A stretch of 64,000 nucleotides of DNA from Corallococcus sp. AS-1-6 (lineage in GTDB: Bacteria; Myxococcota; Myxococcia; Myxococcales; Myxococcaceae): contig NZ_JAIQDE010000021.1 in NCBI RefSeq assembly GCF_020037015.1, positions 62,001 to 126,000 on the forward strand, in the 5' to 3' direction. A model generated the notes under the pieces. It worked only from the letters and a program-made list of their open reading frames with translations. It was not told the origin of the DNA and did not search any database. The first letter of the stretch is position 1, and every line of letters begins with the position of its first letter. Made by a program: the position numbers and the translations under genes. Shown here one piece after another: positions 9,422 through 46,455 of this stretch.

Positions 9422-9522
9422 GCTGTGTCCACCAGCGCACGGCTCCGGCTCCACGAGTGACCTGGGGGTGACGCTCCGCGCGCGGGGCTGACGGTTGTGC
9501 GCCTGCGTCGGCGGGCCACTCC

Positions 9523-9528
9523 TAACGT
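9523..9528 (+). promoter_or_regulatory. Candidate -10 element TAACGT before the mrp operon
   Basis: The hexamer TAACGT lies 13 bases before the ATG of mrpA and fits TANNNT. It would give a leader of only a few bases for the whole operon. Confidence 0.25.
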
Positions 9529-9541
9529 GGGCCCTTCGCCC

Positions 9542-11821
9542 ATGCCCCTCCTCCTGCCCATCCTCCTGGCCCTGGCGTGCGCGCCGCTCGCCTATGTCGC
9601 GGGCCGGTGGCGTCCGGGCGCCGCGGCCTGGATGGGCGCCGCGGGCGCGCTCGCCGCCATGGGGGCGCTGGTCTACGAATGGATGCAGGGGACCACGCGC
9701 CTCGTGCTCCCCTGGGCCCCCTCCTGGGGCCTGTCGCTGGAGTTCACGCGCGACGGCCTGTCCGGCCTCTACGCCGCGCTGGCGCTGGGCGTCGGCGCGC
9801 TCGTGGTCCTGTACTCGCGCGCGTACATGCCGCACCACCTGGCGCAGGAGCGGCGCCCCCCGGGCGACGAGGTGCGCTTCCAGGGGCTGCTCCTCGCGTT
9901 CATGGCCGCCATGGTGCTGCTCGTCACCGTGGATGACCTGCTGCTGCTCTTCGTGGCGCTGGACCTCACCACCATCATCTCCTACCTGCTCATCGGCTTC
10001 GACCGCGAGGACCCCGAGTCGCGCGCCGCCGCGCTCCTGTCCCTGGTGCTCACCGGCGCCACCTCCGTCGTCTTCTTCGCGGGCGCCATGGCGCTGGGCG
10101 TCCAGTACGGCACCTTCTCCCTGCCGCGCGTCTTCGAGCTCGCCGCGCAGTCCCCCGCGTCCACCGGCGCCCTGGTGTGCCTGGCCGTGGGCGCGCTGGG
10201 CAAGAGCGCGCAGGTGCCGTTCCACTTCTGGCTGCCGCGCGCCATGGCCGCGCCCACGCCCGTGTCCTCGTACCTGCACTCGGCCGCGATGGTCGCCGCG
10301 GGCGTCTTCCTGCTCCAGCGCCTCTACCCGCTGTTCGCCCCCGCCACGGACGTGCGCCACGGCCTGCTCGCCATCGGCTTCGTGTCCATGGGCATGGGCA
10401 GCCTGATGGCCCTGGTGGCGGATCCGTTCAAGCGCGTGCTCGCGTACTCCACCATCGCGCAGTACGGCTACGCGCTGGTGCTGGTGGCGCTGGGCTCCGA
10501 GGGCGCGCCGCTCTACGTGGCCGCCCACGCGCCGTGCAAGGCCGCCCTCTTCCTCACCGCGGGCGCCGTCACCCAGGTCACCGGGAAGAAGAAGCTGTCC
10601 CAGGTCGGCGGCCTGCGCCACTCGCTCCCCGTGCTCGCGGGCGCCAGCGCCGTCGCCGCGGCGGGGCTCTCCGCGCTGCCCCTCACCATGGGCTTCTTCA
10701 AGGACGAGGTCTTCTTCCACGCGCTCGCGAAGGAGGGCCCCGCGTTCATGGCGGCGGGGCTCGTGGGCGCGGGCCTGACGCTCGCGTACACGCTGCGCCT
10801 GTGGTGGGGCCTCTTCGGCGGGCCGCGCCAGGACGTGCCCGCCGCGCCCACGCTCCTCGTGGCCCCCGTGGTCGTGCTCGCCGCGAGCATCCTTTTGGGC
10901 GGCGTGGTGCCGGGGCTCCTGGTCGCGCCCTCGCGCGCCGCCGCGGAGGCGATGCGCGGCGAGCCCTCCACGCTGGAGCTCGCGTACCACCTGGACGCGC
11001 GCGTGGAGAACCTGCTCGCCGTGGGGGCCTGGGCCCTGGGCGCGCTGCTCTTCGCCACCCGGCTCGCGTGGACGCCCGCGCTCGCCCGCGTGCTGGAGGC
11101 CGCGTCCCACGTGGGCGCCGAGCGGGGCTACCGCCTGCTGCTGCACCAGTTGGACCGGCTGTCCACGTGGCTGCACGAGAAGGAGGTGCGCGACCTGCGC
11201 GACCGCGTGGCGTCCGTGCTGGTGCCCACGGGCCTGCTGGGCCTGACGGTGCTGGGCGTGACGCCGCTGCGCGACCGCTTCAAGGTGGGCACCGTGGACT
11301 GGGCGGACATCACCCTGGTGATGGCGCTCGCGTTCGCGTCCGCCGCCGCGCTGGCCACGCTGCGCGCGAAGGGCCACCTGCGGCTGGTGCTGCTCATCTC
11401 CTGCGTGGGCTTCAGCCTGGCCATGGTGTTCGCCTTCGCCGCCGCGCCCGACGTGGCCCTCACCTCCGTGCTGGTGGAGACCACCTTCACGTTGCTCTTC
11501 GCGGGCCTGCTGGCGCTGCTCCCCCGCGACCGGCTCGAGCGCGCCCAGCACGAGGCCCAGAACCCCCGTGGCCGGGACCGACTGGCCGCGGCGGTCGCGG
11601 GCGCGAGCGCCTTCCTCCTGAGCTGGAGCGCCCTGTCCCACCTGCACGCCGAGCGCGTGGGCGCGCGCACGGTGCAGTTGGCGAAGGCCGCGCACTCGCC
11701 CAACGTCGTGGCGGCGGTGCTCACGGACTTCCGGGGCCTGGACACGGTGGGGGAGATGACCGTGGTGGTCGCGGCGCTGCTGGGCGTCACCAGCCTCCTG
11801 CGCCTGAAGGGGAGGCGGTGA
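9542..11821 (+). CDS. mrpA: Mrp-type Na+/H+ antiporter subunit A
   Basis: The protein is 759 residues from the ATG at 9542. The first 540 residues are a NuoL-like proton-translocating unit with conserved helices, including KSAQVPFHFWLPRAM and the SYLHSA loop. A DUF4040 (MbhD-like) segment lies around 600-680, and the C-terminal FRGLDTVGEMTVV motif belongs to the MbhE-like end. This is the largest subunit of the multisubunit cation/proton antiporter that exports Na+ using the proton gradient and helps with pH and salt homeostasis. It leads a compact seven-gene operon in the canonical order A to G. The start was set at the ATG after a non-conserved Arg-rich upstream stretch. Confidence 0.93.
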   Translation: MPLLLPILLALACAPLAYVAGRWRPGAAAWMGAAGALAAMGALVYEWMQGTTRLVLPWAPSWGLSLEFTRDGLSGLYAALALGVGALVVLYSRAYMPHHLAQERRPPGDEVRFQGLLLAFMAAMVLLVTVDDLLLLFVALDLTTIISYLLIGFDREDPESRAAALLSLVLTGATSVVFFAGAMALGVQYGTFSLPRVFELAAQSPASTGALVCLAVGALGKSAQVPFHFWLPRAMAAPTPVSSYLHSAAMVAAGVFLLQRLYPLFAPATDVRHGLLAIGFVSMGMGSLMALVADPFKRVLAYSTIAQYGYALVLVALGSEGAPLYVAAHAPCKAALFLTAGAVTQVTGKKKLSQVGGLRHSLPVLAGASAVAAAGLSALPLTMGFFKDEVFFHALAKEGPAFMAAGLVGAGLTLAYTLRLWWGLFGGPRQDVPAAPTLLVAPVVVLAASILLGGVVPGLLVAPSRAAAEAMRGEPSTLELAYHLDARVENLLAVGAWALGALLFATRLAWTPALARVLEAASHVGAERGYRLLLHQLDRLSTWLHEKEVRDLRDRVASVLVPTGLLGLTVLGVTPLRDRFKVGTVDWADITLVMALAFASAAALATLRAKGHLRLVLLISCVGFSLAMVFAFAAAPDVALTSVLVETTFTLLFAGLLALLPRDRLERAQHEAQNPRGRDRLAAAVAGASAFLLSWSALSHLHAERVGARTVQLAKAAHSPNVVAAVLTDFRGLDTVGEMTVVVAALLGVTSLLRLKGRR

Positions 11822-26686: not shown

Positions 26687-26831
26687 GGAGGGCCCCGCCG
26701 CCGGGCCGCCCCACCCCGCCAGGCAGGCAGGCCGGCATGCGCGGGCGGCGCGTCACCGGCGTCCGGCGTGCGCATCCTTCGTGGCGAGGGGGGGCTCCAG
26801 CGGGCATCGCCTCCTCCGAGGGGGCCCCGCC

Positions 26832-28190
26832 ATGGCCATCATCTGCGCAACCAACCTGTCCGCCGACGCCGCGCACGCGGCCACCCTCGCGGCGACGCTC
26901 GCCGGCCGCCTGGGAGAGCCCCTGCTGCTCCTGGGGGTGGATGACGAGGTCCCTGACGCGGAGGCCCCCGACGCCCTGTCCACGGCGGAAGGGGGGCTGG
27001 CCGCGGAGGCCGCGCGGCTGAGGGCGTTCGTGGGCACCGTGGAGCCGCGCATGCAGCGGGGCGCCTCCGTGGAGACGCTGCTGGGGGAGGAGGAGTGCAG
27101 GAGCGCCCGGCTGGTGGTGGTGGCCGCGGAGGGCTGGCGCACGTCCCCCTGGCGCAAGACGTCCCTGGCGGAGCGCCTGGCCCGCCACGGCTGCGCCCCG
27201 GTGCTGGCGGTGCGCCGGGACACGGCGCTCCTGGACTGGGCCCGGGGCCGGCGCAGGCTGCTGGTGATGGTGGGGGTGGACCCCCGCTCCGCCACGTCCG
27301 ACGCGGCCATCACCTTCCTGCGGGAGCTGCGGCGCGTGGGCGGGTGCGACGTGCTGGCCACGTACGTGTGCTCGCCGCTGGAGGAGCGCGAGCGGCTGGG
27401 CATCCACACCCCCGTGCACGTGGAGCGGCTGGACGCGCGCGAGCGCACCATGGAGGGGCTGGAGCCGCTGGTGGAGCGCGTGCTCCAGCGCGAGGTGCGC
27501 GAGCGCCTGGGCGACCTGGAGGGCGAGGGCCGCGTGGAGGTGGTGCTGGAGCCCGGCTATGGCCGCCCGGCGGACCACCTGCTGCACGTGGCCCACGCGC
27601 GCAGCGTGGAGCTGACGGTGGTGGGCATGCACCTGCGCGGCGGCGTGCAGCGGCTGTGGCACGGCTCCGTGTCGGAAGGGGTGCTGCGCCACGCGGAGCG
27701 CTCCGTGGCGTGCATCCCGCCCGGAGCGCGCGAGCCGCGCCGGCTGCCGCCGCCCCGGAGCGCGCTGGTGCCGGTGGACTTCACGCAGGCCTCCGGACAG
27801 GCCATCGCGCAGGCGTGCTCGCTGGTGGGGCCGGGCGGCCGCGTGCACCTGCTGCACGTGCACCGGCTCCGGGGCCGCGAGCGGGGCCCCCGGGACTTCC
27901 ACGGCGTGCTCCCGGAGCCCGACAGCGAGCGGGACCGGGTGCTGAAGCGGCTCTGGGCGCAGGTGCCCGGGGACACGGTCGCGCGGGCGGTGCACTGGAG
28001 CGTGGAGGGCGTCAGCGGAGAGGACGTCGCCGTCGCCATCTGCCAGGCCACGGAGCGCGAGGGCGTGGACCTGGTCTGCGTGGGCACGTCCCCCCACCGC
28101 GAGGTGGCGCCGGACGTGCTGGAGGAGGCGGTGGCGCGCGAGCTGGTGGTGCGCTGCCGCCGGCCCGTGATGGTGGTGCCCTCCGTTTGA
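26832..28190 (+). CDS. Universal stress protein with three UspA-like domains
   Basis: This 452-residue protein starts at the ATG at 26832; an upstream extension is unconserved. Domain 1 (about 1-140) begins MAIICATNLS and ends APVLAVRR. Domain 2 (about 145-297) begins LLVMVGVDPRS and has VGMHLRGGVQRLWHGSVSEGVL. Domain 3 (about 305-452) begins SALVPVDFT and ends RRPVMVVPSV. The ATP-binding G-x2-G-x9-G-S/T pattern is best kept in domain 2 (GMHLRGG...HGSVSEG), so at least one domain may bind ATP. Tandem-USP proteins are associated with stress and redox changes. It is transcribed alone. Confidence 0.8.
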   Translation: MAIICATNLSADAAHAATLAATLAGRLGEPLLLLGVDDEVPDAEAPDALSTAEGGLAAEAARLRAFVGTVEPRMQRGASVETLLGEEECRSARLVVVAAEGWRTSPWRKTSLAERLARHGCAPVLAVRRDTALLDWARGRRRLLVMVGVDPRSATSDAAITFLRELRRVGGCDVLATYVCSPLEERERLGIHTPVHVERLDARERTMEGLEPLVERVLQREVRERLGDLEGEGRVEVVLEPGYGRPADHLLHVAHARSVELTVVGMHLRGGVQRLWHGSVSEGVLRHAERSVACIPPGAREPRRLPPPRSALVPVDFTQASGQAIAQACSLVGPGGRVHLLHVHRLRGRERGPRDFHGVLPEPDSERDRVLKRLWAQVPGDTVARAVHWSVEGVSGEDVAVAICQATEREGVDLVCVGTSPHREVAPDVLEEAVARELVVRCRRPVMVVPSV

Positions 28191-30204: not shown

Positions 30205-30864
30205 TCAGCCCTCTTCGCGGGTGATGCGGAGGGCGTCGGCCTCCAGCTTCTGGGTCGCCTCGGGGTCCGCGCTGTCGTAGTAGCCGCGGATCTCCCCCGT
30301 GCCGTCCACCAGCACGAAGTGGGTGCCGTGGAAGATGGAGAGCAGGTCGTCCTCGGGGGCGCCGGCCTCGCGGCCCATGCTGATCTTGAAGCCCTGGACG
30401 ATGGTGTCCTTGAGGGTGGCGTAGTCGCCGGTGAGGAAGTTCCAGCGGGTGAAGTCCGCTTTGTACTTCCGCCCGTACTCGGCCAGCCGCTCCGGGGTGT
30501 CGTAGGCGGGATCCACGGAGAAGGACACCAGTTGGAGGTCCGTCCCCAGCTCCGCGGTGTGCTCCTGCACGCGCGCCATCTTCTGCGTGAAGACGGGGCA
30601 GACGGTGGGGCAGCGGGTGAAGATGAAGTTGGCGATGAACGGGTGGCCGCGGAGCTGCTTCAGTCCGAAGGGCTGCCCGTCCTGCCGCGTGAAGGTGAAG
30701 TCCGGCAGCGCGCCCAGGCGGGGCGGCGGCTGGGCGCGGCCCTTCACCAGGTCGTGGACCGCCACCCCCATGAAGCCGAGCGACGCCACGGCGATGCCCG
30801 CCCAGACCCAGGAGCGGCGGACGGGACGGGAGCGGGGGGCGGCGGACGGAGATTCGACGGACAT
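30205..30864 (-). CDS. SCO1/SenC family copper chaperone for cytochrome oxidase
   Basis: This 219-residue protein has an N-terminal transmembrane anchor (about 20-38) and a thioredoxin-like domain. The copper-binding CPTVC motif is at about residues 85-89, and the distant His ligand is in HGTHFVLVD (about 179-187). SCO proteins deliver copper to the CuA site of CoxB in the periplasm. It is divergent from the oxidase genes that begin 155 bases away, which fits that job. Start chosen at the ATG at 30864; the upstream open frame lies across the divergent genes. Confidence 0.88.
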   Translation of the reverse strand: MSVESPSAAPRSRPVRRSWVWAGIAVASLGFMGVAVHDLVKGRAQPPPRLGALPDFTFTRQDGQPFGLKQLRGHPFIANFIFTRCPTVCPVFTQKMARVQEHTAELGTDLQLVSFSVDPAYDTPERLAEYGRKYKADFTRWNFLTGDYATLKDTIVQGFKISMGREAGAPEDDLLSIFHGTHFVLVDGTGEIRGYYDSADPEATQKLEADALRITREEG

Positions 30865-31018: not shown

Positions 31019-31345
31019 ATGTCCCAGGCCCTCTTCCAGCCCCCGTGTGGACGCGCTTCGCCGGGCGGGTGGGGAGGCTTCCGGTCGCTGGCGGGGAGGC
31101 TTTCCCGTCGCTCCGGGCCGTGGCTCGGGCTCGCCGGGGGGCTGGTGCCGGCGGCGGCGCTGGCGTGCCCCTCGTGCACGGCCCGGGCGCCGGAGTCCCC
31201 GGGGGGGGCGGGCGAGCTGCTGCTGGCGCTGATGCTGGTGCCCTTCGCGCTGGTGGGCGTGGGGCTCTGGGCGGCCTGGCGGGCGGGGCGAGCGTCGCCG
31301 GGAGCAGAGCGGGCTTCGGCCCCCGTGGAACAGGAGCATCCGTGA
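31019..31345 (+). CDS. Small membrane protein of the cytochrome oxidase cluster
   Basis: This 108-residue protein has a hydrophobic segment at about 36-51 followed by LACPSCTAR, and a second helix at about 66-86. The first helix could be a signal sequence with the CPSC pair exposed outside the membrane. The stop overlaps the coxB start (GTGATG), so it is translationally coupled to CoxB. It may be an accessory factor for the oxidase; no family is recognised. Confidence 0.6.
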   Translation: MSQALFQPPCGRASPGGWGGFRSLAGRLSRRSGPWLGLAGGLVPAAALACPSCTARAPESPGGAGELLLALMLVPFALVGVGLWAAWRAGRASPGAERASAPVEQEHP

Positions 31346-32181
31346 TGGCGGAGTCCCCTGCGTTGTCCCCGTCGTCCGTGAGCGACGTCGCGCCGCCGGA
31401 TGCGCAGGCGCCCCTGGCGGTGCCGCCCGCGCGTGGCGCCTGGAGCCTGGCGCCCCCGGAGAACGCGAGCGCGACGGGCGACCGCATCGACGCGCTGCTG
31501 GCCACGAGCCACAGCTTCGACCTGGCGCTGGCGGCGGTGATGCTCGGGTGGTTGTTGCTGGCGGTGGCGCGCTTCCGGAACGCGCGGAAGGTGGCGCCGG
31601 ACGGGGGCACGCGGCGCTCGCGGGCGTGGGTGCTGGGGCTGGCCGTGTGCGCGTTCGGCGTGGTGGACGGGACGCTGTTCCTGGGCTCGCAGGGCTACCT
31701 GGACGACGTGCTCTGGAACTTCCGCGTCCCCATGGAGGACCCGCGCACGGTGCGCATCCAGCTCAACGCGCACCAGTGGTCGTGGGAGGCGCGGTACGCG
31801 GGCGCGGACGGGGCGTTCGGCACGAAGGACGACGTGGTGACGTGGAACGACCTGCGCGTCCCGGCGGGCGTGCCCGTCTGGGTGCAACTGGTCTCCACGG
31901 ACGTGGTGCACGGGTTCACGCTGCCGGCCTTCCGCGTGAAGCTGGACGCCATCCCGGGCCGGGTGAACCAGACGTGGTTCCAGGCCGCTCGCGAGGGCGC
32001 GTGGGAGGTGGCCTGCTACCAGCACTGCGGCACCAGCCACTACCGGATGCGCGGCATGCTGACGGCGCTGTCCCCGGAGGCGTACGCGGCGTGGCTGCGC
32101 GAGGCGAGCCTCAAGGCGGTGCAGGCCTACGACCCGGATGACACGGCGGCCCACTGGGGCTGGGTGTGGAGGACGCCATGA
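31345..32181 (+). CDS. coxB: Cytochrome c oxidase subunit II (CuA)
   Basis: This 278-residue protein has two N-terminal transmembrane helices (about 60-75 and 93-112) and a periplasmic cupredoxin domain. The complete CuA site is present: His in STDVVHGFTLP (about 195) and the C-x3-C-x3-H-x2-M block CYQHCGTSHYRM (about 228-239). The aromatic patch QWSWEARY, the electron entry region, is at about 146-153. It takes electrons from cytochrome c. The stop overlaps the coxA start by four bases (ATGA). The N-terminus is longer and more Ala/Pro-rich than usual. Confidence 0.92.
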   Translation: MAESPALSPSSVSDVAPPDAQAPLAVPPARGAWSLAPPENASATGDRIDALLATSHSFDLALAAVMLGWLLLAVARFRNARKVAPDGGTRRSRAWVLGLAVCAFGVVDGTLFLGSQGYLDDVLWNFRVPMEDPRTVRIQLNAHQWSWEARYAGADGAFGTKDDVVTWNDLRVPAGVPVWVQLVSTDVVHGFTLPAFRVKLDAIPGRVNQTWFQAAREGAWEVACYQHCGTSHYRMRGMLTALSPEAYAAWLREASLKAVQAYDPDDTAAHWGWVWRTP

Positions 32182-33911
32182 AGGCGGGGGCGCTCGTGAA
32201 GTCGCTCTGGACGACGGACCCCCAGCGCGTGGCGCGGCAGTACCTGTGGGGCGGGTTCCTGTTCCTGCTGATAGGCGGCCTTCTGGCCATGCTCATCCGC
32301 TTCCAGTGGGCGTGGCCCGGGCAGCCGGTGCCGGGGCTCGCGTGGGTGCTGCCCGAGTCGAAGGGCGCGCTCACGCCGCCCACGTACACGGCCGTGTTCA
32401 CGATGCACGGCCTGTTGATGATCTTCTTCGCGGTGACGCCGCTGCTCTTCGGCGCGCTGGGGCACTTCGTGCTGCCGCTGGCGATTGGCTCGAAGCAGAT
32501 GGCGTTCCCCCGGCTGTCGCCGTTCGGCTTCTGGGCCTACGCGGTGGGCGGCGCGCTGATGCTGGTGTCGTTCGTGGTGCGGCTGGGGCCGGCGAGCGCG
32601 GGGTGGACGTCCTATCCGCCGCTGGCGACGCCCGCGTTCACGCCGGGGCTGGGGCAGACGCTGGTGACGGTGGCGGTGCTGTTCGTGGGCGCGTCCGCGT
32701 TCCTGTACGGGCTCAACTTCGTCGTCACGGTGGTGCGCTGCCGCGCGCCGGGGATGACGTGGGGCCGGATGCCGCTGGTGGTGTGGGGGCTGTTCTACGG
32801 CGCGGTGCTCAACGTGCTGTTCGTGCCGGTGCTGGCGGCGGCCACGGTGCTGCTGTTGTTGGACCGGGTGGCGGGCACGCAGTTCTTCATCGCGGGCGCG
32901 GCGGCGGTGGGCGGGGGCGGCGACCCGGTGGTGTACCAGCACCTGTTCTGGCTGTTCGGCCACCCGGAGGTCTACATCCTCATCCTGCCCGCGTGGGGCA
33001 TGGTGGGGGACTTCGTCGCGTTCTTCAGCCGCAAGCCCGCGCATGGCTACCGGCTGACGGCGGGGGCCATGGGCGTGGTGACGGCGCTGAGCGGCGCGGT
33101 GTACGCGCACCACCTGTTCACCAGCGGGATGGCGCCGGTGCTGGGGCGCACGTTCATGGTGCTGACGCTGCTCATCTCCCTGCCCGCGGAGGTGATGTTC
33201 CTCAACTGGCTGATGACGCTGTGGCGGGGCAGCGTGCGGCTCACGTCGCCGATGCTCGCGGCGCTGGCGACGATGGTCGTCTTCGGCCTGGGCGGCATCA
33301 CGGGGCTGGCGCTGGGCGCGGTGGCGACGGACGTGCCGCTGCACGGGACGATGTGGGTGGTGGGCCACTTCCACCTGACGATGGGCGCGGCCAGCTTCCT
33401 CGCGGTGTTCGCGGGGCTCTACTTCTGGTTCCCCCGCATGTACGGGCGCGCGTTGGACGAGCGGCTGGCGAAGGTGCACGTGCTGCTGAGCGCGGTGCTG
33501 TTCATCGCCGTCTTCGGCGGCCAGTTGGTGGCGGGCTACGCGGGGCAGTTGCGGCGGCTCTATGACCCGTACCAGTACACGTTCCTCGAGCACCTGCTCC
33601 CGTTGAACCGGTGGACCAGTTGGGCCGCGTTCGCGCTGGGCGCGGCGCAGTTGGTGTTCGTGGTGAACCTGGTGCGGACGCTCGGGTGGGGCCGGGCCGC
33701 GGAGCCGAACCCGTGGCGGGTGGGCACGCTGGAGTGGACGGACGCGGCGCCCGGCGCGGTGGTGCTGCGCGGGCCGCATGCGCTGTCGCAACCGGAAGTG
33801 CAGGAGCAACTGGGTCGCGATTGGATTGGCCAGGCGGAGCCGCTGTCCCCGGGCGTGCCCGTGGCGGAGCCGGTGGCGCCGCCGGTGCCCGGGGTGGAGG
33901 GCGCCGTCTAG
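32178..33911 (+). CDS. coxA: Haem-copper oxidase subunit I with non-canonical proton-channel residues
   Basis: This 577-residue catalytic subunit has low-spin haem ligands His77 (MHG) and His399. The high-spin haem ligand is His397 (GHFHL), CuB ligands are His262 (GHPEVY), His311 and His312 (AHHLFTSG), and Tyr266 would form the His-Tyr cross-link. These are intact, so it should reduce O2 or a related substrate. Compared from memory with Paracoccus/Rhodobacter enzymes, the D-channel entry Asp (IGAPDMAFPR) is Gln108 here, the Asn pair that follows is missing, and the K-channel Thr and Lys (PTGIK) are replaced by Ala and Met (PAEVM, about 336-340). Glu264 is kept. Proton pumping may therefore differ. 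Confidence 0.9.
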   Translation: MKAGALVKSLWTTDPQRVARQYLWGGFLFLLIGGLLAMLIRFQWAWPGQPVPGLAWVLPESKGALTPPTYTAVFTMHGLLMIFFAVTPLLFGALGHFVLPLAIGSKQMAFPRLSPFGFWAYAVGGALMLVSFVVRLGPASAGWTSYPPLATPAFTPGLGQTLVTVAVLFVGASAFLYGLNFVVTVVRCRAPGMTWGRMPLVVWGLFYGAVLNVLFVPVLAAATVLLLLDRVAGTQFFIAGAAAVGGGGDPVVYQHLFWLFGHPEVYILILPAWGMVGDFVAFFSRKPAHGYRLTAGAMGVVTALSGAVYAHHLFTSGMAPVLGRTFMVLTLLISLPAEVMFLNWLMTLWRGSVRLTSPMLAALATMVVFGLGGITGLALGAVATDVPLHGTMWVVGHFHLTMGAASFLAVFAGLYFWFPRMYGRALDERLAKVHVLLSAVLFIAVFGGQLVAGYAGQLRRLYDPYQYTFLEHLLPLNRWTSWAAFALGAAQLVFVVNLVRTLGWGRAAEPNPWRVGTLEWTDAAPGAVVLRGPHALSQPEVQEQLGRDWIGQAEPLSPGVPVAEPVAPPVPGVEGAV

Positions 33912-35443
33912 CGGTGCTCCCAGAGGTCCACGCCGCCGGCGTCGCCCTGGGGGAAGCGGCGGACGAAGCGCTGCTTGAACCAGGGGCGGCTCTGCGGCGT
34001 GAGCTGCCACTCGCCGCGCCAGCCGAGGACGACGAAGCGGCAGGAGCCCAGCATGATGCGCAGGGCCTGCTGGGCCTCATCGGCGGAGAGGGCCTCGTCG
34101 GTGGTCTCGAAGCGGTCGCCGGTGCTCATGGCGTCCTGGAGCATGGTGGCGTAGCCGTCCACGATGGGCGTGGCGCCCGTGGGGAGCCGGCCCGCCGCGA
34201 GCGCCCAGCCGGGCTCGAAGGAGTAGAGGCACGCATCGGGGGGCACGTCCGCGCGGATGTGCTTCGCGAGCGCCACCACGTCCGGGGCCTGAAGCCGGGC
34301 GCTCTGGTGGACGTGCCTCGCGCCGGGGAGGAACGCGGCGGCGAACAGGAGCGCGGCCACGGCGCGTGAGGCCGCGCGGCCCCAGCGGGTGCTGAAGGCG
34401 TGGAGCACGGAGGCGCCCAGGCCCGCGAGCACGGCCTCCGACGCGGCGAGGTGCGCGTTGTACTGGTTCCAGTAGGTCCGCGACGCGAGGAACAGGGCCA
34501 CGCTGAGGACGAACGCGCAGGCGAAGAAGCGCGCGGCGGGGCGGTGCTCCGGCGCGGCACGGAAGGCGCGCACGCACGCGGTGCCCAGGCCCACGAGGGC
34601 GAGGAGGACCTCGCCCCACCGGCGCTCGTGGAAGATGTCGCGCAGGCGCAGCCAGCGGTCCAGCTCCCCGTCCGGCGGGCGCGTGGCCTGGAAGGTGATG
34701 ACGTCGCGGAGGAACTCGGAAGGGGCGAGCGCGGCCAGCGGGCCCACGACGGCGACGAAGGTGGCGGACGCGACCAGCACGGGCAGGAGGGCGTGACGCC
34801 AGGACTCCCTCCCCGGGCGCGAGAGCAGCGCGGCGACGAGCCACAGTCCGCCCGGGAGCTTCACGGAGATGGCGAGGCCCAGGAGCACGCCCGCGCCGAT
34901 GCGGCGGGCTCGGGAGGGCGGGCCGGAGGCGAGCCAGAGGTTCGCGAAGCCCAGGCACAGGACGTTGAGCAGCGGTTCGAGGAAGGTGCCGCGCTCCACG
35001 AGGGCGGCCTCCGGATACGCGGCATAGGCGAGCGCGGCCACGCAGCCCGCGACAGGACCCCAGGCGCGCCAAGCGACCCGGCCGGCGAGGAACACGCACA
35101 GGGCGCCCACGGCGGCGGCGAGGTAGCGGGTGATGCCGTAGGCGGTGGCCGCGTCGAGCCCCAGCGTGAGCGCTGCGCCGGGGGCCCAGAGCAGGAGGCC
35201 GCCGGGCGGGTGGACGAAGATGAAGTCGCGGTAGGGCAGGTCCCCGCGCAGCAGGAGCGACGCGGCGGAGAAGTAGACGCCCTCGTCGTAGTCCATGGGG
35301 TAGCCCATGGCGCCGGAGCGATGGAAGAACGCCATCGCGCGCAGCACCCAGGCGCCCAGCGCCACGATGATCAACGGCCAGAGGTCCAGGCTCCGCGCGG
35401 CGCGAGGAGGGACGGGCGGGGACGGAGTGGGCGCGGGTTCCAT
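33908..35443 (-). CDS. GT-C type membrane glycosyltransferase (family 39 / ArnT-like)
   Basis: This 511-residue protein has about ten or more hydrophobic helices. The acidic pair typical of polyprenyl-phosphate sugar transferases lies after the first helix (YDEGVYFSAA, about 53-62), with HPPGGLLLW near 79. The C-terminal 130 residues form a soluble periplasmic domain. Such enzymes move a sugar from a lipid carrier to protein or glycolipid. It lies opposed to, and overlaps by four bases with, the end of coxA, and separates coxA from the CoxC-like gene. No other glycan genes are nearby. Confidence 0.8.
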   Translation of the reverse strand: MEPAPTPSPPVPPRAARSLDLWPLIIVALGAWVLRAMAFFHRSGAMGYPMDYDEGVYFSAASLLLRGDLPYRDFIFVHPPGGLLLWAPGAALTLGLDAATAYGITRYLAAAVGALCVFLAGRVAWRAWGPVAGCVAALAYAAYPEAALVERGTFLEPLLNVLCLGFANLWLASGPPSRARRIGAGVLLGLAISVKLPGGLWLVAALLSRPGRESWRHALLPVLVASATFVAVVGPLAALAPSEFLRDVITFQATRPPDGELDRWLRLRDIFHERRWGEVLLALVGLGTACVRAFRAAPEHRPAARFFACAFVLSVALFLASRTYWNQYNAHLAASEAVLAGLGASVLHAFSTRWGRAASRAVAALLFAAAFLPGARHVHQSARLQAPDVVALAKHIRADVPPDACLYSFEPGWALAAGRLPTGATPIVDGYATMLQDAMSTGDRFETTDEALSADEAQQALRIMLGSCRFVVLGWRGEWQLTPQSRPWFKQRFVRRFPQGDAGGVDLWEHR

Positions 35444-35602
35444 CGGAGTCAGCGCGGCAGGCTACTACCGGCGGGCCCAGGGCGGCATCACGGGTGTGAT
35501 GCGCGGAGGTGATTCGGTCGATGGGCGCCGCTCCGAGGGACGGGGGGCCGCCCGGCTTCCTGGTGCTTCGCGCCGGGCCCAGGCATGCGAGAGTCCGGCC
35601 CC

Positions 35603-36166
35603 GTGAGCACGAACGAACGGGCCTCGCCGTCCCCTCATCATGACGAAGGGAACCTCTGGTTCGGGGCCGTCATCGCGCACGGCGCGGCGGCGATGCTCTT
35701 CTGCGCCATGGCCTTCACCGCGGGCTTCTACCGGCTGCGCGGCTTCTGGCCTCCCGCGTCCGCGCGCCCGGGAGTCCTCGTCCCCGCGCTGGCCGGGGGG
35801 CTCCTCGTCATCGGGGCCGTGTTGCTGCACGTCGCGCTCCGGCGGCCCCGGCCGGACCGGCTCACATTGGCGGGCGTGCTGGGCGCCGGGGCGGGGTTCC
35901 TGGCGACGCAGGCGGCCTGGCTGCACGTGCTGTTCTGGTACCGGGACCTGCGCATCCCCGACAGCGGCGTCTTCGCCTCCGCGCTGTATGGCCTGTCGGC
36001 GGTGCACGCCGCGCACCTGGCGGTCGTGCTCCTGGGACTGCTGCGCGCGGGGCTCCGCGTCCTGCGCGGACAGGACGCGAGCGCTCCGGTGCGGCGCGCC
36101 CTGCCCGGCTGGTGGTGTTCGACGATGATGTACGGCGTCCTCTTCGCGGTGGTGTACCTCCCATGA
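35603..36166 (+). CDS. Cytochrome c oxidase subunit III-like protein
   Basis: The protein is 187 residues from a GTG at 35603; an ATG at 35585 gives 193. Five hydrophobic helices are visible. The third and fourth, with AWLHVLFWYRDL and SAVHAAHLAVVLLG, resemble the HxxH-bearing helix of CoxC/CyoC. It is shorter and more diverged than standard subunit III. The stop overlaps the cytochrome c gene start (ATGA). With coxA and coxB 1.7 kb upstream it likely completes the same oxidase. Confidence 0.7.
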   Translation: MSTNERASPSPHHDEGNLWFGAVIAHGAAAMLFCAMAFTAGFYRLRGFWPPASARPGVLVPALAGGLLVIGAVLLHVALRRPRPDRLTLAGVLGAGAGFLATQAAWLHVLFWYRDLRIPDSGVFASALYGLSAVHAAHLAVVLLGLLRAGLRVLRGQDASAPVRRALPGWWCSTMMYGVLFAVVYLP

Positions 36167-37161
36167 AGCCCACTCCCTGCTTCTCGCTCCGCCTGTTCGC
36201 CGTGCTCGCGTTGGGGGCGCTCGCTCCCGCGTGCCGCAAGGAGGCGCCCACCTTCGAGCCCCTGAAGCTCGCGGACGGCACCGTCATCCCCGCCGCGACG
36301 CTGGCGCGCGGATACGACGTCTACACGCACTACTGCGCGTCCTGTCACGGCGAGAAGGGCGACGGTCAGGGCCCCGCGGGCTCCGGGATGCGGCCTCCTC
36401 CGCGCAACTTCCACCAGGGCCTCTACAAGTTCGGCGGCGTGGCGGCGGGCGAGCTGCCCACCGACGACGCGCTGAAGCGCACGCTGCGGCGGGGCCTGCA
36501 CGGCACGCCCATGTTCGCGTGGGACGTGCCCCCGGCGGACGTGGACGCCGTGGTGCAGTACCTGAAGACGTTCAGCCCGCGCTGGACGCAGGAGTCCCCC
36601 GGCGCGGCCATCGCCGTGTCGGACGACCCGTGGAAGGGCCGCGAAGCCGAGGCCGTGGAGCGCGGCCGCACCGTCTACCACGTGGCCGGCAAGGGCAACG
36701 CGGGCTGCGCCAGTTGCCACGTCGCGTACCTGCCCCGCGCGGAGCTCGCCGCGCTCACGGAGAGCGTCACCGGCCGCAAGGTGAACCTGGCGAACGCGGA
36801 TCCATACACGGCGCTGCAGCGGGATTCGGACTACTCGCTCACCGTGGACGCGAAGGGGGAAGCCACGCAGATGGCCAAGGTGCTGCCGCCGGACTTCCTC
36901 TTCCACCGCCTGCGCACGGTGTGGCCCCAGGGCACGCGCGTGGAGGGCCAGCCGTACACCGCGCAGGCCCAGCGCGAGGACCTCTACCGCGTGATGGCCG
37001 CGGGCGTCGGCGGCGCGGCCATGCCGTCATGGAAGGGCGCCATCCCGGAGGAGAACCTCTGGGCGCTCACGTACTACGTGCAGAGCCTCGTCGTGATGCA
37101 CGACACCCGCGCCGCCCGCGACCTCCAGCAACGGTTGCGTGACTCGAAGGTGCAGGAATAG
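36163..37161 (+). CDS. Dihaem c-type cytochrome lipoprotein
   Basis: This 332-residue protein has a signal sequence ending in a lipobox-like LAPAC (Cys around 25) and two CxxCH haem sites: CASCHGEKGDG near 63 and CASCHVAYL near 184. Candidate Met axial ligands are in GMRPPPRNF/GTPMFAW and GGAAMPSW. The first domain resembles cytochromes of cbb3- and caa3-type systems. It probably donates electrons to CoxB in the periplasm or is the electron-entry partner of this oxidase. It is cotranscribed with the CoxC-like gene. Confidence 0.85.
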   Translation: MKPTPCFSLRLFAVLALGALAPACRKEAPTFEPLKLADGTVIPAATLARGYDVYTHYCASCHGEKGDGQGPAGSGMRPPPRNFHQGLYKFGGVAAGELPTDDALKRTLRRGLHGTPMFAWDVPPADVDAVVQYLKTFSPRWTQESPGAAIAVSDDPWKGREAEAVERGRTVYHVAGKGNAGCASCHVAYLPRAELAALTESVTGRKVNLANADPYTALQRDSDYSLTVDAKGEATQMAKVLPPDFLFHRLRTVWPQGTRVEGQPYTAQAQREDLYRVMAAGVGGAAMPSWKGAIPEENLWALTYYVQSLVVMHDTRAARDLQQRLRDSKVQE

Positions 37162-37265: not shown

Positions 37266-38378
37266 GTGACGACCTATTCCGTTCGCAGCGGCGACACGTT
37301 GAGCGGCCTCGCGCAGCGCTTCAACACGTCGGTGTCTTCGCTCCAGAAGACGAACCACATCGCGAACGCGAACCTCATCCGCGTGGGGCAGCGGCTGACG
37401 GTCCCGGACGGGTTCCAGGCGGCGCCGTCGAAGGCGGGCAGCTACACGGTGCGCAGCGGGGACACGCTGAGCGGCATCGCGGGGCGGCACGGCACGACGG
37501 TGGGGGCGCTGGCGAAGGCGAACCACATCGCGAACCCGAATAAAATCTACGTGGGCCAGCGGCTGACGATTCCGGGCGCGGGTGGGGGCGCGGCGCCGGT
37601 GACGTCGAAGCCGCCGCCGTCCGGAGGCGCTTCGTACACGGTGCGCAGCGGGGACACGCTGAGCGGCATCGCGGGGCGGTACGGCACGACGGTGGGGGCG
37701 TTGCAGCAGGCGAACCACATCGCGAACCCGAACAAGATCTACGTCGGGCAGAAGCTGACGATCCCGGGCCGCACGGGCGGGACGGGCGGGGCGTCGAAGC
37801 CGCCTCCGTCGACGGGGGGCGTGGGTGGGACGCCGGGCACGTCGGGAGGGAAGGGCGGGGTGACGGTGGCGCAGTTGCGGCGGATCATGCCGAACCTGTC
37901 GCAGGCGAAGGCGGAGCAGTACCTGCCGCACCTGAACAAGGCGATGGCGGAGGCGAACATCAACACGCCCCGGCGCAAGGAGATGTTCCTGGCCCAACTG
38001 GCGCATGAGAGCGGCGAGCTGCGCTACATGGAGGAGATCGCCTCCGGCGCCGCGTACGAGGGCCGCAAGGACCTGGGCAACACGCAGCCGGGCGACGGCA
38101 AGCGCTACAAGGGCCGAGGCCCCATCCAGTTGACGGGCCGCGCGAACTACCGCGCGGCGGGCAAGGCGTTGGGCATCGACCTGGAAGGGCACCCGGAGCG
38201 CGCGAAGGATCCGGACGTCGCGTTCCGCATCGCGGGTTGGTACTGGGGCTCGCGCAACCTGAACAGCTACGCGGACGCGGGCAACTTCCGCGAGGTCACC
38301 CGCCGCATCAACGGCGGCTACAACGGCCTCGCGAGCCGCGAGATGTACTACCGCCGCGCGCAGGACGTGCTGGGCTGA
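37266..38378 (+). CDS. Three-LysM GH19 family peptidoglycan/chitin hydrolase
   Basis: This 370-residue protein starts at a GTG. LysM modules lie at about 3-47, 59-103 and 123-167, joined by Gly/Pro/Ser linkers. Modules 2 and 3 are almost identical at DNA level. A GH19-type domain spans about 198-370 with the likely acid Glu248 (LAHESGE), a second Glu near 256-257 (YMEEIASG), [12 protein letters not shown] and the WYW-type aromatic cluster. GH19 enzymes cut chitin or peptidoglycan. LysM points to a cell-wall target. No signal peptide is present, so export must use another route or lysis. In a predatory myxobacterium it could attack prey walls. Confidence 0.85.
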
Positions 38379-45345: not shown

Positions 45346-46455
45346 TCAGGCGATGGTGAGCGCGTCCCCCAGGTGCACCAGCCCCCGGAAGTCCTCCAGG
45401 TCCGCGCCCGCGTCCGGCGCGGCGATGGCCAGCGCGCCCCGGGGCAGCCCCTCCGCCAGCCTCGCCAGCAGCGAGCGGTGGGCCTTCGCGCGCGCGTCCT
45501 CCATGCCCGCCAGGTGCTCCAGCGCGCTGACGGCGTCCGTGTCCGCGGCGTTGCTCGCGTGCGGCTTCAGCGCGGCGGCCGGGGCCAGGCCTTCGTCCCG
45601 CGCCCAGCTCCGGTTGAGCACGTAGCCCGCGAAGGGCAGCCCCTTGGCCTGGAGCGCCTCCTGGAAGAAGGTGGCCTCGCGCAGCGCGGCGGCCTCCGGC
45701 GACGTGACGAGCAGGAACGCCGCGTCCTTCGACGACAGGTGCTCGCGCAGCCGGTCCGCGTGCAGGCGGATGCCGGCGAACAGGCCCCCGAAGGCGGCGA
45801 CGAAGCTGCGCATCTCCTGCGCGAAGCCGCCGCCGAAGATGCCGTCCAGCACCTTGCCCACCAGCGCCTGCGCGCCCTGCCACAGCCTGCCCGCGCGGCC
45901 CTGCTCCTGCCCGAAGAGGGAGATGACCCGCTCATCCAGGAAGCGCGACAGGCGGCCCGGCGCGTCCAGGAAGTCCAGCGCGTGGCGGCTGGGCGGGGTG
46001 TCCAGGATGATGAGGTCGTAGTGGCCCTCCGCGATGAAGCCGTCCAGCGCCTCCGCGGCGGCGTACTCCTGCACGCCCGCGACCAGCTCCGACAGGAAGC
46101 GGTACAGGCGGTGCTCCAGGATGGCGCGCGCGGCGCTCTCCGTGGCGGACATCCGGCGCACCATGCGCTCGAAGACGACGCGCGGCTCCAGCATCCACAC
46201 GTCCAGCCGCCCCTCGCCGCGCTTCCCGTCCGCGTACAGGCGCTCCGGAGGCACGGAGGTGGGCTCCGCGCCGTTCTCCTTCAGCCCCATGGCCTCCGCC
46301 AGCCGCCGCGCCGGGTCGATGGTGAGCACCAGCACCTTGCGCCCCGCGCGCGCCGCGGCCACGCCCAGCGCCGCCGCCGTCGTCGTCTTGCCCACGCCGC
46401 CCGCGCCGCACAGCACGAGGATCCGCTTGTCGCGCAGCATGCCGTCCAGGTTCAT
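45346..46455 (-). CDS. ArsA/GET3-like ATPase (first of a pair)
   Basis: This 369-residue protein has the deviant Walker A CGAGGVGKTTT (about 16-26), switch I DPARRLAEAMG (about 47-57) and switch II LDTPPSRHALDFLDAP (about 160-175) of the ArsA/GET3 family. Eukaryotic members insert tail-anchored proteins; bacterial ArsA drives an arsenite pump. No arsenical pump or ArsR is nearby, and a Cys cluster for arsenite is not visible, so arsenic resistance is unlikely. It starts four bases inside the end of the other ArsA-like gene. Two half-size ATPases encoded together suggest a heterodimer. Confidence 0.85.
   Translation of the reverse strand: MNLDGMLRDKRILVLCGAGGVGKTTTAAALGVAAARAGRKVLVLTIDPARRLAEAMGLKENGAEPTSVPPERLYADGKRGEGRLDVWMLEPRVVFERMVRRMSATESAARAILEHRLYRFLSELVAGVQEYAAAEALDGFIAEGHYDLIILDTPPSRHALDFLDAPGRLSRFLDERVISLFGQEQGRAGRLWQGAQALVGKVLDGIFGGGFAQEMRSFVAAFGGLFAGIRLHADRLREHLSSKDAAFLLVTSPEAAALREATFFQEALQAKGLPFAGYVLNRSWARDEGLAPAAALKPHASNAADTDAVSALEHLAGMEDARAKAHRSLLARLAEGLPRGALAIAAPDAGADLEDFRGLVHLGDALTIA

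Follow-up and report, generated by a model that had tools for sequence, protein, structure and literature searches.

For about 30 years, mutants have fuelled the debate over which channel of cytochrome oxidase carries the chemical protons and which the pumped ones. An enzyme that occurs in nature under selection, and from which the D-channel Asp, the Asn pair and the K-channel Lys are all missing, opens that question to direct testing. Such an enzyme is encoded by coxA (32178..33911, forward strand), the gene for catalytic subunit I of a family A oxidase, in a stretch of 64,000 nucleotides from Corallococcus sp. AS-1-6 (contig NZ_JAIQDE010000021.1, positions 62,001 to 126,000); the whole of this stretch was analysed and is referred to here as the window, with coordinates counted from its first nucleotide. 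The locus raises the question of how protons would reach an active site that has kept its metals and lost both channels. The explanation that we favour, and to which we assign an even chance on the sequence evidence, is that CoxA would be an accessory family A cytochrome c:O2 oxidase, in which both channels were dismantled stepwise, which pumps weakly or not at all, and which takes up protons by a replacement route of hydroxyl residues.

The coxA reading frame is open throughout and specifies a product of 577 amino acids, with a Pfam COX1 match of 414.8 bits. The best NCBIfam model was CtaD_CoxA (TIGR02891; 497 bits, E 5e-149, under the equivalog cut-off of 670.75), the SoxB model scoring 61 bits. 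Metal ligands and channel residues were located by alignment with E. coli CyoB and relatives, by which position numbers of the window protein were also transferred; the equivalences among bovine, Rhodobacter and Paracoccus residue numbers are in part our assumption. The alignment placed the haem a ligands at H77 and H399, the haem a3 ligand at H397 and the CuB ligands at H262, H311 and H312, and showed that Y266, E264 and R459/R460 are retained; Glu264-Val-Tyr266 (32967..32975, forward strand) holds both the active-site Tyr and the Glu in which the D-channel ends at its top. The Tyr-I active-site residue and all ligands of haem a, haem a3 and CuB that family A requires are thereby present. The preceding gene, coxB (31345..32181, forward strand), encodes subunit II, overlaps coxA by 4 bases and carries the motif H...CxQxCxxxHxxM, the full CuA ligand set of a CuA-bearing cytochrome c oxidase. 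A sequence-only reading of this DNA had claimed intact metal sites in CoxA and a full CuA site in CoxB, and both claims are borne out. The closest structure found by Foldseek was 2gsm_A (35% identity, template-modelling score 0.79); the AlphaFold model of CoxA had a mean predicted local distance difference test value (pLDDT) of 76.6 and a predicted template-modelling score of 0.83, with residues 242-263, 315-321 and 382-394 below a pLDDT of 50.

The D-channel of family A has been listed, in Paracoccus numbering, as Asp124, Asn199, Asn113, Asn131, Tyr35, Ser134, Ser193 and Glu278, and the K-channel as Lys354, Thr351, Ser291 and Tyr280 (PMC3084760). Five of the eight D-channel residues are changed in CoxA (D124Q, N113H, N131S, S134G and S193A), leaving only Asn199, Tyr35 and Glu278, and three of the four K-channel residues are changed (K354M, T351A and S291G), leaving only Tyr280; neither channel has its family A form. 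The codons concerned, all on the forward strand, include those of His96 at Asn113 (32463..32465), Gln107 at the D-channel entrance Asp124, which is Asp135 in CyoB (32496..32498), Ser114 at Asn131 (32517..32519), Gly277 at Ser291 (33006..33008), and Ala337-Glu-Val-Met340 at Thr351 and Lys354 (33186..33197). These assignments uphold what the earlier reading had said of the channels, namely that Gln stands for the D-channel Asp (Q107 aligns there, and 31/31 readable Myxococcaceae genes are without the Asp), that the Asn pair is lost (S114-P115 stand in its place) and that the K-channel PTGIK is PAEVM (A337 and M340 occupy PTGxK positions). Its suggestion that the enzyme would not pump by the standard route is well supported, at the level of sequence, by the same counts of changed residues. 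CoxA belongs to family A by descent, yet is not a canonical A1 enzyme by the channel definition.

The change at Asn131, which we take to be bovine Asn98, is to Ser in all 14 alignment rows of the lineage lacking the D-channel Asp (D-less rows). Mutants of bovine Asn98, N98S included, retain O2 reduction while pumping is gone (PMC12901375); by this analogy, the Asn131 to Ser change of CoxA would be a natural form of a decoupling change made in the laboratory.

To place these losses in order, we turn to the relatives. When 117 genomes of the order were searched, 49 had matches of at least 56% identity; these matches number 50, of which G039 and G057 are partial, and are termed clade I. The clade spans Myxococcota, Planctomycetota and Acidobacteriota, its named members being Corallococcus, Pyxidicoccus and Myxococcus loci, Planctomycetota and a Thermoanaerobaculia assembly; the Corallococcus terminator locus is 91% identical, and L012, which shares the genus code of the window, appears to be this very gene. 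Three trees were built with the trait columns omitted (FastTree with 136 rows, and LG+C20 with posterior mean site frequencies with 94 and with 133 rows), and all three, as well as the sequence, place CoxA within family A; the tree placement that the sequence-only reading had proposed as a check thus speaks for family A and against a nitric oxide (NO) reductase. Clade I forms one group, with values of 100 in the 136-row and 94-row trees and of 99, with 26 rows, in the 133-row tree.

Nested inside clade I is the D-less group, in which 31/31 readable genes (family code f1) have Gln, Arg or Gly at the Asp position and all are without the Lys; the name Myxococcaceae is used for this group on the basis of its named Corallococcus, Pyxidicoccus and Myxococcus loci. 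Clade I rows outside it keep Asp, Asn113 and Asn131 in 24/24 cases, with Leu, Val, Ile or Phe in place of Lys, and four loci that keep the Asp (L039, L042, L045 and L046) carry family code f1, so the loss of the Asp falls short of the whole code. Two more D-less members of clade I are L050, with Arg, and L106, with Asn and from a Kofleriaceae assembly; their joining in the 136-row tree is flagged as a possible long-branch artefact. Because the D-less group is nested within a clade lacking the Lys, the K-channel was lost first and the D-channel later. An acid (Asp or Glu) is present at the Asp position in 71/71 Lys-bearing rows, the rows added later agreeing, and every row without a D-channel acid is also Lys-less: the Myxococcaceae group, L050, L106, L079 (Lys to Gln) and L252, which represents a separate double loss in another Lys-less group (D124Q, N113T, N131S, N199T and K354L). 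The minimum numbers of changes on the 133-row tree were six for the Lys and three for the Asp. CoxB has Ser where subunit II otherwise contributes a Glu to the K-channel entrance; in the 129 of 136 rows that were readable for this position, that Glu is present in 63/64 Lys-bearing and 18/65 Lys-less rows, and within clade I only in L106. With the Lys of subunit I and the Glu of subunit II both lost, the dismantling thus runs across two genes. The channel changes are old, inherited and stepwise. Sequencing error or a pseudogene was rejected, as 31/31 relatives agree and the ratio of nonsynonymous to synonymous substitution rates (dN/dS) is below 0.4; Glu338 of PAEVM was rejected as a new proton acid because conservation is lacking (Glu in 10/14 D-less and 10/24 D-retaining rows).

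A residue on transmembrane helix 8 (TM8) accompanies the loss of the Lys. Ser334 (33177..33179, forward strand; CyoB 356) lies six residues before the K-channel Lys position, and the column scan and group table gave Ser or Thr at 334 together with Ser305 on TM7 in 62/62 Lys-less rows of seven groups, Ser/Thr334 occurring in 2/71 Lys-bearing rows; the Lys-to-Gln rows L079, L080 and L163 were counted separately from the 62. A follow-up set of 87 further loci, from which 60 rows less than 90% identical to the old rows were kept and 27 near copies removed, had both residues in 28/29 Lys-less rows and Ser/Thr334 in 0/31 Lys-bearing rows. In the 133-row set, Ser/Thr334 was found in 51/54 Lys-less versus 1/79 Lys-bearing rows. 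Thr334 is found in two Lys-less lineages whose Lys-bearing sisters have Ala or Gly there, and the switch therefore arose more than once. Clade I has in addition Thr294, Thr302 and Tyr309, the last replacing a Trp that is present in 71/71 Lys-bearing rows; the column scan showed T294, T302, S305 and Y309 as a polar stripe along TM7 (Thr294 to Tyr309, 33057..33104, forward strand), which by an arithmetic of 100 degrees per residue lies on the helical face of the CuB ligand His312. We infer from these columns a replacement proton wire around the hydroxyls of TM7 and TM8. K-channel loss in family A has been published; what is new here is that Ser/Thr at TM8 position 334 accompanies the loss of the Lys, and no open-literature paper was found on loss of both channels or on the Ser/Thr switch.

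Several other loci bear odd oxidases of their own. The oxidase of L079 and L091, of the window's genus code, is also unusual: Asn stands at the D-channel Asp and Gln at the Lys, and the Ser/Thr switch is absent; its relative L080 has Trp at the Glu of HPEVY. L252 and L264 (G362, in the acidobacterial phylum of G129) have a CoxA with its own double loss, Asp to Gln and Lys to Leu, and the L252 CoxA is apparently fused to a weak COX3-like domain.

In the explanation that we favour, the order of loss is the one shown above: an ancestor of a wide clade lost the K-channel, in subunit I as well as at the subunit-II entrance, and the D-channel was lost later, in Myxococcaceae. CuA, haem a and the haem a3-CuB-Tyr site would still reduce O2, and the chemical protons would arrive by a hydroxyl route around Ser334 on TM8 and Ser305 on TM7, extended in clade I by Thr294, Thr302 and Tyr309 towards the CuB ligand His312. 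Family A enzymes pump about one H+ per electron; with Asp124 and Asn131 gone, weak or no pumping would be expected of this one. Its role might be that of an electron sink, or of an oxidase with low coupling, in a genome that also has two ordinary A2 oxidases. The loss of channel residues while the metal, Tyr and Glu sites stay invariant argues for this explanation. As a tentative generalization, possible but short of probable, family A O2 reductases without either canonical channel may use a Ser/Thr-Tyr wire in TM7 and TM8, marked by recurrent loss of Lys362 and gain of Ser/Thr356 (CyoB numbering); the D-channel would then become dispensable and be lost, and pumping would be given up.

A number of observations weigh against such a route. 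K362M/K319M mutants of ordinary enzymes, without the K-channel Lys, are blocked in haem a3 reduction (PMC10341450, PMC12901375); something must therefore stand in for the Lys if an enzyme lacking it is to work. Ser305 also occurs in 7/71 Lys-bearing rows and in 7/31 of those in the follow-up set, and the three Lys-to-Gln rows have Ser334 in 1/3 and Ser305 in 0/3, L079 and L163 being without Ser/Thr334. The sole follow-up exception, L214, is also the only Lys-less row, Lys-to-Gln rows apart, that lacks Ser/Thr334; its HPEVY motif has Val for Glu, and Leu occupies its Lys position. Counted as independent pairs, the association of Lys with Ser/Thr334 comes to five pairs, three to four concordant and zero to one opposed, and that of Lys with the subunit-II Glu to four pairs, neither being significant. 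Constraint is also looser than in the A2 paralogue: for the same genome pair, dN/dS was 0.38 for this CoxA versus 0.24 for the A2 CoxA.

Compared with A1-type aa3 oxidases (Rhodobacter sphaeroides, Paracoccus denitrificans), CoxA shares the fold, metal ligands, Tyr, HPEVY and CuA subunit II; unlike them, it is without the D-channel Asp/Asn and the K-channel Lys/Thr/Ser, has Tyr for Trp beside the CuB His, and belongs to an oxidase without a Pfam-detectable subunit III of its own. It resembles the R. sphaeroides aa3 mutants K362M (3om3) and D132A (3omi), both among its top Foldseek matches, in being changed at the same two sites, Lys to Met and Asp to a non-acid; unlike these mutants, it combines both changes, is natural and selected, and has Ser334/Ser305 along with many other changes. 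With B- and C-type oxygen reductases it shares the lack of a D-channel acid entrance and, probably, a single proton route. The K-channel is replaced by Thr/Ser/Tyr in B-type and by Ser/Tyr in C-type enzymes (PMC3084760). CoxA has neither replacement: unlike the B-type it has Met340, Ala337 and Gly277, and unlike the C-type (cbb3) it has Ala337 and Gly277 at the Thr351 and Ser291 positions and Tyr-I rather than Tyr-II. An A-type enzyme would in this case approach the single-channel design of B- and C-types through a different line of residues. The nearest precedent is the archaeal family A oxidases, in which the K-channel was also lost within family A, up to seven times under one hypothesis (PMC8239418); the main-text sections of that archaeal treatment mention no loss of both channels.

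Should CoxA turn over, neither channel would be required for O2 chemistry. Should it also pump, the protons must take some other path, for example the H-pathway; should it not pump, it would be what decoupled mutants are in the laboratory, but made by nature. Through its Ser/Thr switch, position 334 is singled out as a residue to mutate.

Of the alternatives to a hydroxyl route, the one that survives best, although we regard it as unlikely, is that chemical protons are taken from the periplasm, as in cytochrome-c-dependent NO reductases, which would make O2 reduction non-electrogenic. Both cytoplasmic channels are gone, as this would have it, and the periplasmic side is remodelled in the D-less lineage: the position of R. 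sphaeroides Asp412, presumably a Mg ligand, is Gly390 in CoxA (33345..33347, forward strand) and Gly or Ala in 14/14 D-less rows versus Asp in 24/24 D-retaining rows, and the Glu of the CuA motif is Gln in CoxB. That Gln is, however, common to D-retaining relatives, L050 and L106 keep Asp412 without Asp124, and the conserved hydroxyls lie on the cytoplasmic half of TM7. Loss of the magnesium site as a cause was rejected, since the Glu-to-Gln change is also found in D-retaining relatives.

An improbable alternative is that the D-channel still works, by means of a widened, water-filled entrance with Gly or Gln for Asp, and feeds Asn199 and Glu278. The D-less rows do keep Asn199 and Glu278 in 14/14 cases and Tyr35 as Tyr or Phe, and 10/14 of them have Gly at the Asp position; yet two rows have Arg there, Asn113, Asn131, Ser134 and Ser193 are mostly lost too, L252 is without Asn199, and in model enzymes an Asp-to-Asn change at this site stops the uptake of protons (PMC8361435).

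CoxA might also be a catalytically weak or regulatory relic, such as an O2 sensor or an assembly partner, heading to loss, to which we give rather little credence. Its distribution is patchy, as a relic's would be: by hand count the gene is present in 12/25 genomes of g6, 2/2 of g2 and 5/5 of g3, and the window's genus code has the full gene in 12/14 genomes, with one fragment and one genome without it. Subunit III is degenerate or missing, and CoxA is under purifying selection with looser constraint than the A2 paralogue. Against this, the dN/dS values of 0.12-0.29 over 11 pairs are well under 1, the metal ligands, Tyr and Glu are retained across deep divergence, CuA is retained, and genes for SCO1 and a c-type cytochrome are retained alongside coxA.

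CoxA might instead pump normally by some other path, of which the H-pathway put forward for bovine oxidase is an example. In favour of this is the argument that the H-pathway exists in all three families (PMC12901375), and CoxA would offer a clean test of it. The chemical protons would still require a route, and we find this alternative most doubtful.

The sequence-only reading had also offered NO as a possible substrate. CuA-bearing NO reductases exist, and the absence of D- and K-channels resembles NO reductases, yet this identity is highly improbable and was rejected on the motifs, the active-site Tyr, which is kept, and the placement within family A, CtaD_CoxA being the best NCBIfam model and the profile search returning no NorB model at E<=0.001. 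NO reductases carry H-x-Arom-x-E, with Glu for the active-site Tyr, and HH-x-Arom-Arom-x17-E (PMC3084760); neither motif is in the CoxA translation, which has HPEVY and HHLFT instead.

The genes around coxA include several that could belong with an oxidase. Upstream and in divergent orientation lies a gene for an SCO1/SenC copper chaperone (30205..30864, reverse strand; PF02630, 100.7 bits), followed by an open reading frame for a small membrane protein with an ACPSC motif (31020..31345, forward strand), the stop of which overlaps the coxB start; NCBIfam and Pfam searches found no family for the longer frame from 30953. Downstream, after a GT87-like gene identified by family search (33908-35443, reverse strand), are genes for a subunit-III-like protein (35585..36166, forward strand) and for a c-type cytochrome with two CxxCH motifs (36163..37161, forward strand; PF13442, 63.8 bits), which overlaps the preceding gene and is probably the electron donor of the oxidase. 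The subunit-III-like product had no Pfam match, being too diverged for Pfam COX3; in a model that included it, it is similar to the COX3 that relatives encode downstream.

The genome has three COX1 genes, of which the two others (L001 and L093) are of A2 type with YSHPAVY and with Asp and Lys intact, and its only two PF00510 genes each adjoin an A2 oxidase. Of the two other COX1 genes, L093 (G000:C13:50001-62000) encodes an ordinary A2 oxidase and has a COX3 of its own; it lies ahead of the window by about 1 kb and is about 34 kb from the odd coxA. Among D-retaining clade I, 17/23 loci have a COX3 extra to the downstream one, or an upstream-type COX3, flanks being short in some of the other 6/23 and both COX3 kinds matching PF00510. 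No clear upstream-type COX3 was found in seven D-less loci (the window, L034, L090, L096, L097, L050 and L106), a weak match of 28 bits adjoining L106. The decay of subunit III would fit the loss of the D-channel, as subunit III is known to sustain proton uptake through that channel (work cited in PMC8361435); across loci the association is no more than a tendency, and subunit III loss was rejected as the cause of D-channel loss.

NmpR is a regulator of the M. xanthus O2 regulon (PMC11841059); its regulation of coxA was rejected, as the consensus occurs only at 45808 and 54152, away from coxA, and 18/100 shuffles match that count. Upstream of the cluster, 26781-28190 encodes a universal stress protein family product with three PF00582 stretches. 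On the other side, the product of 37266-38378 has three LysM domains ahead of a class I chitinase-like domain (PF00182) and is probably an enzyme that cuts walls. Further away, 9497-11821 encodes a large membrane protein that we take to resemble a subunit of a multisubunit Na+/H+ antiporter or of an NADH dehydrogenase-type complex.

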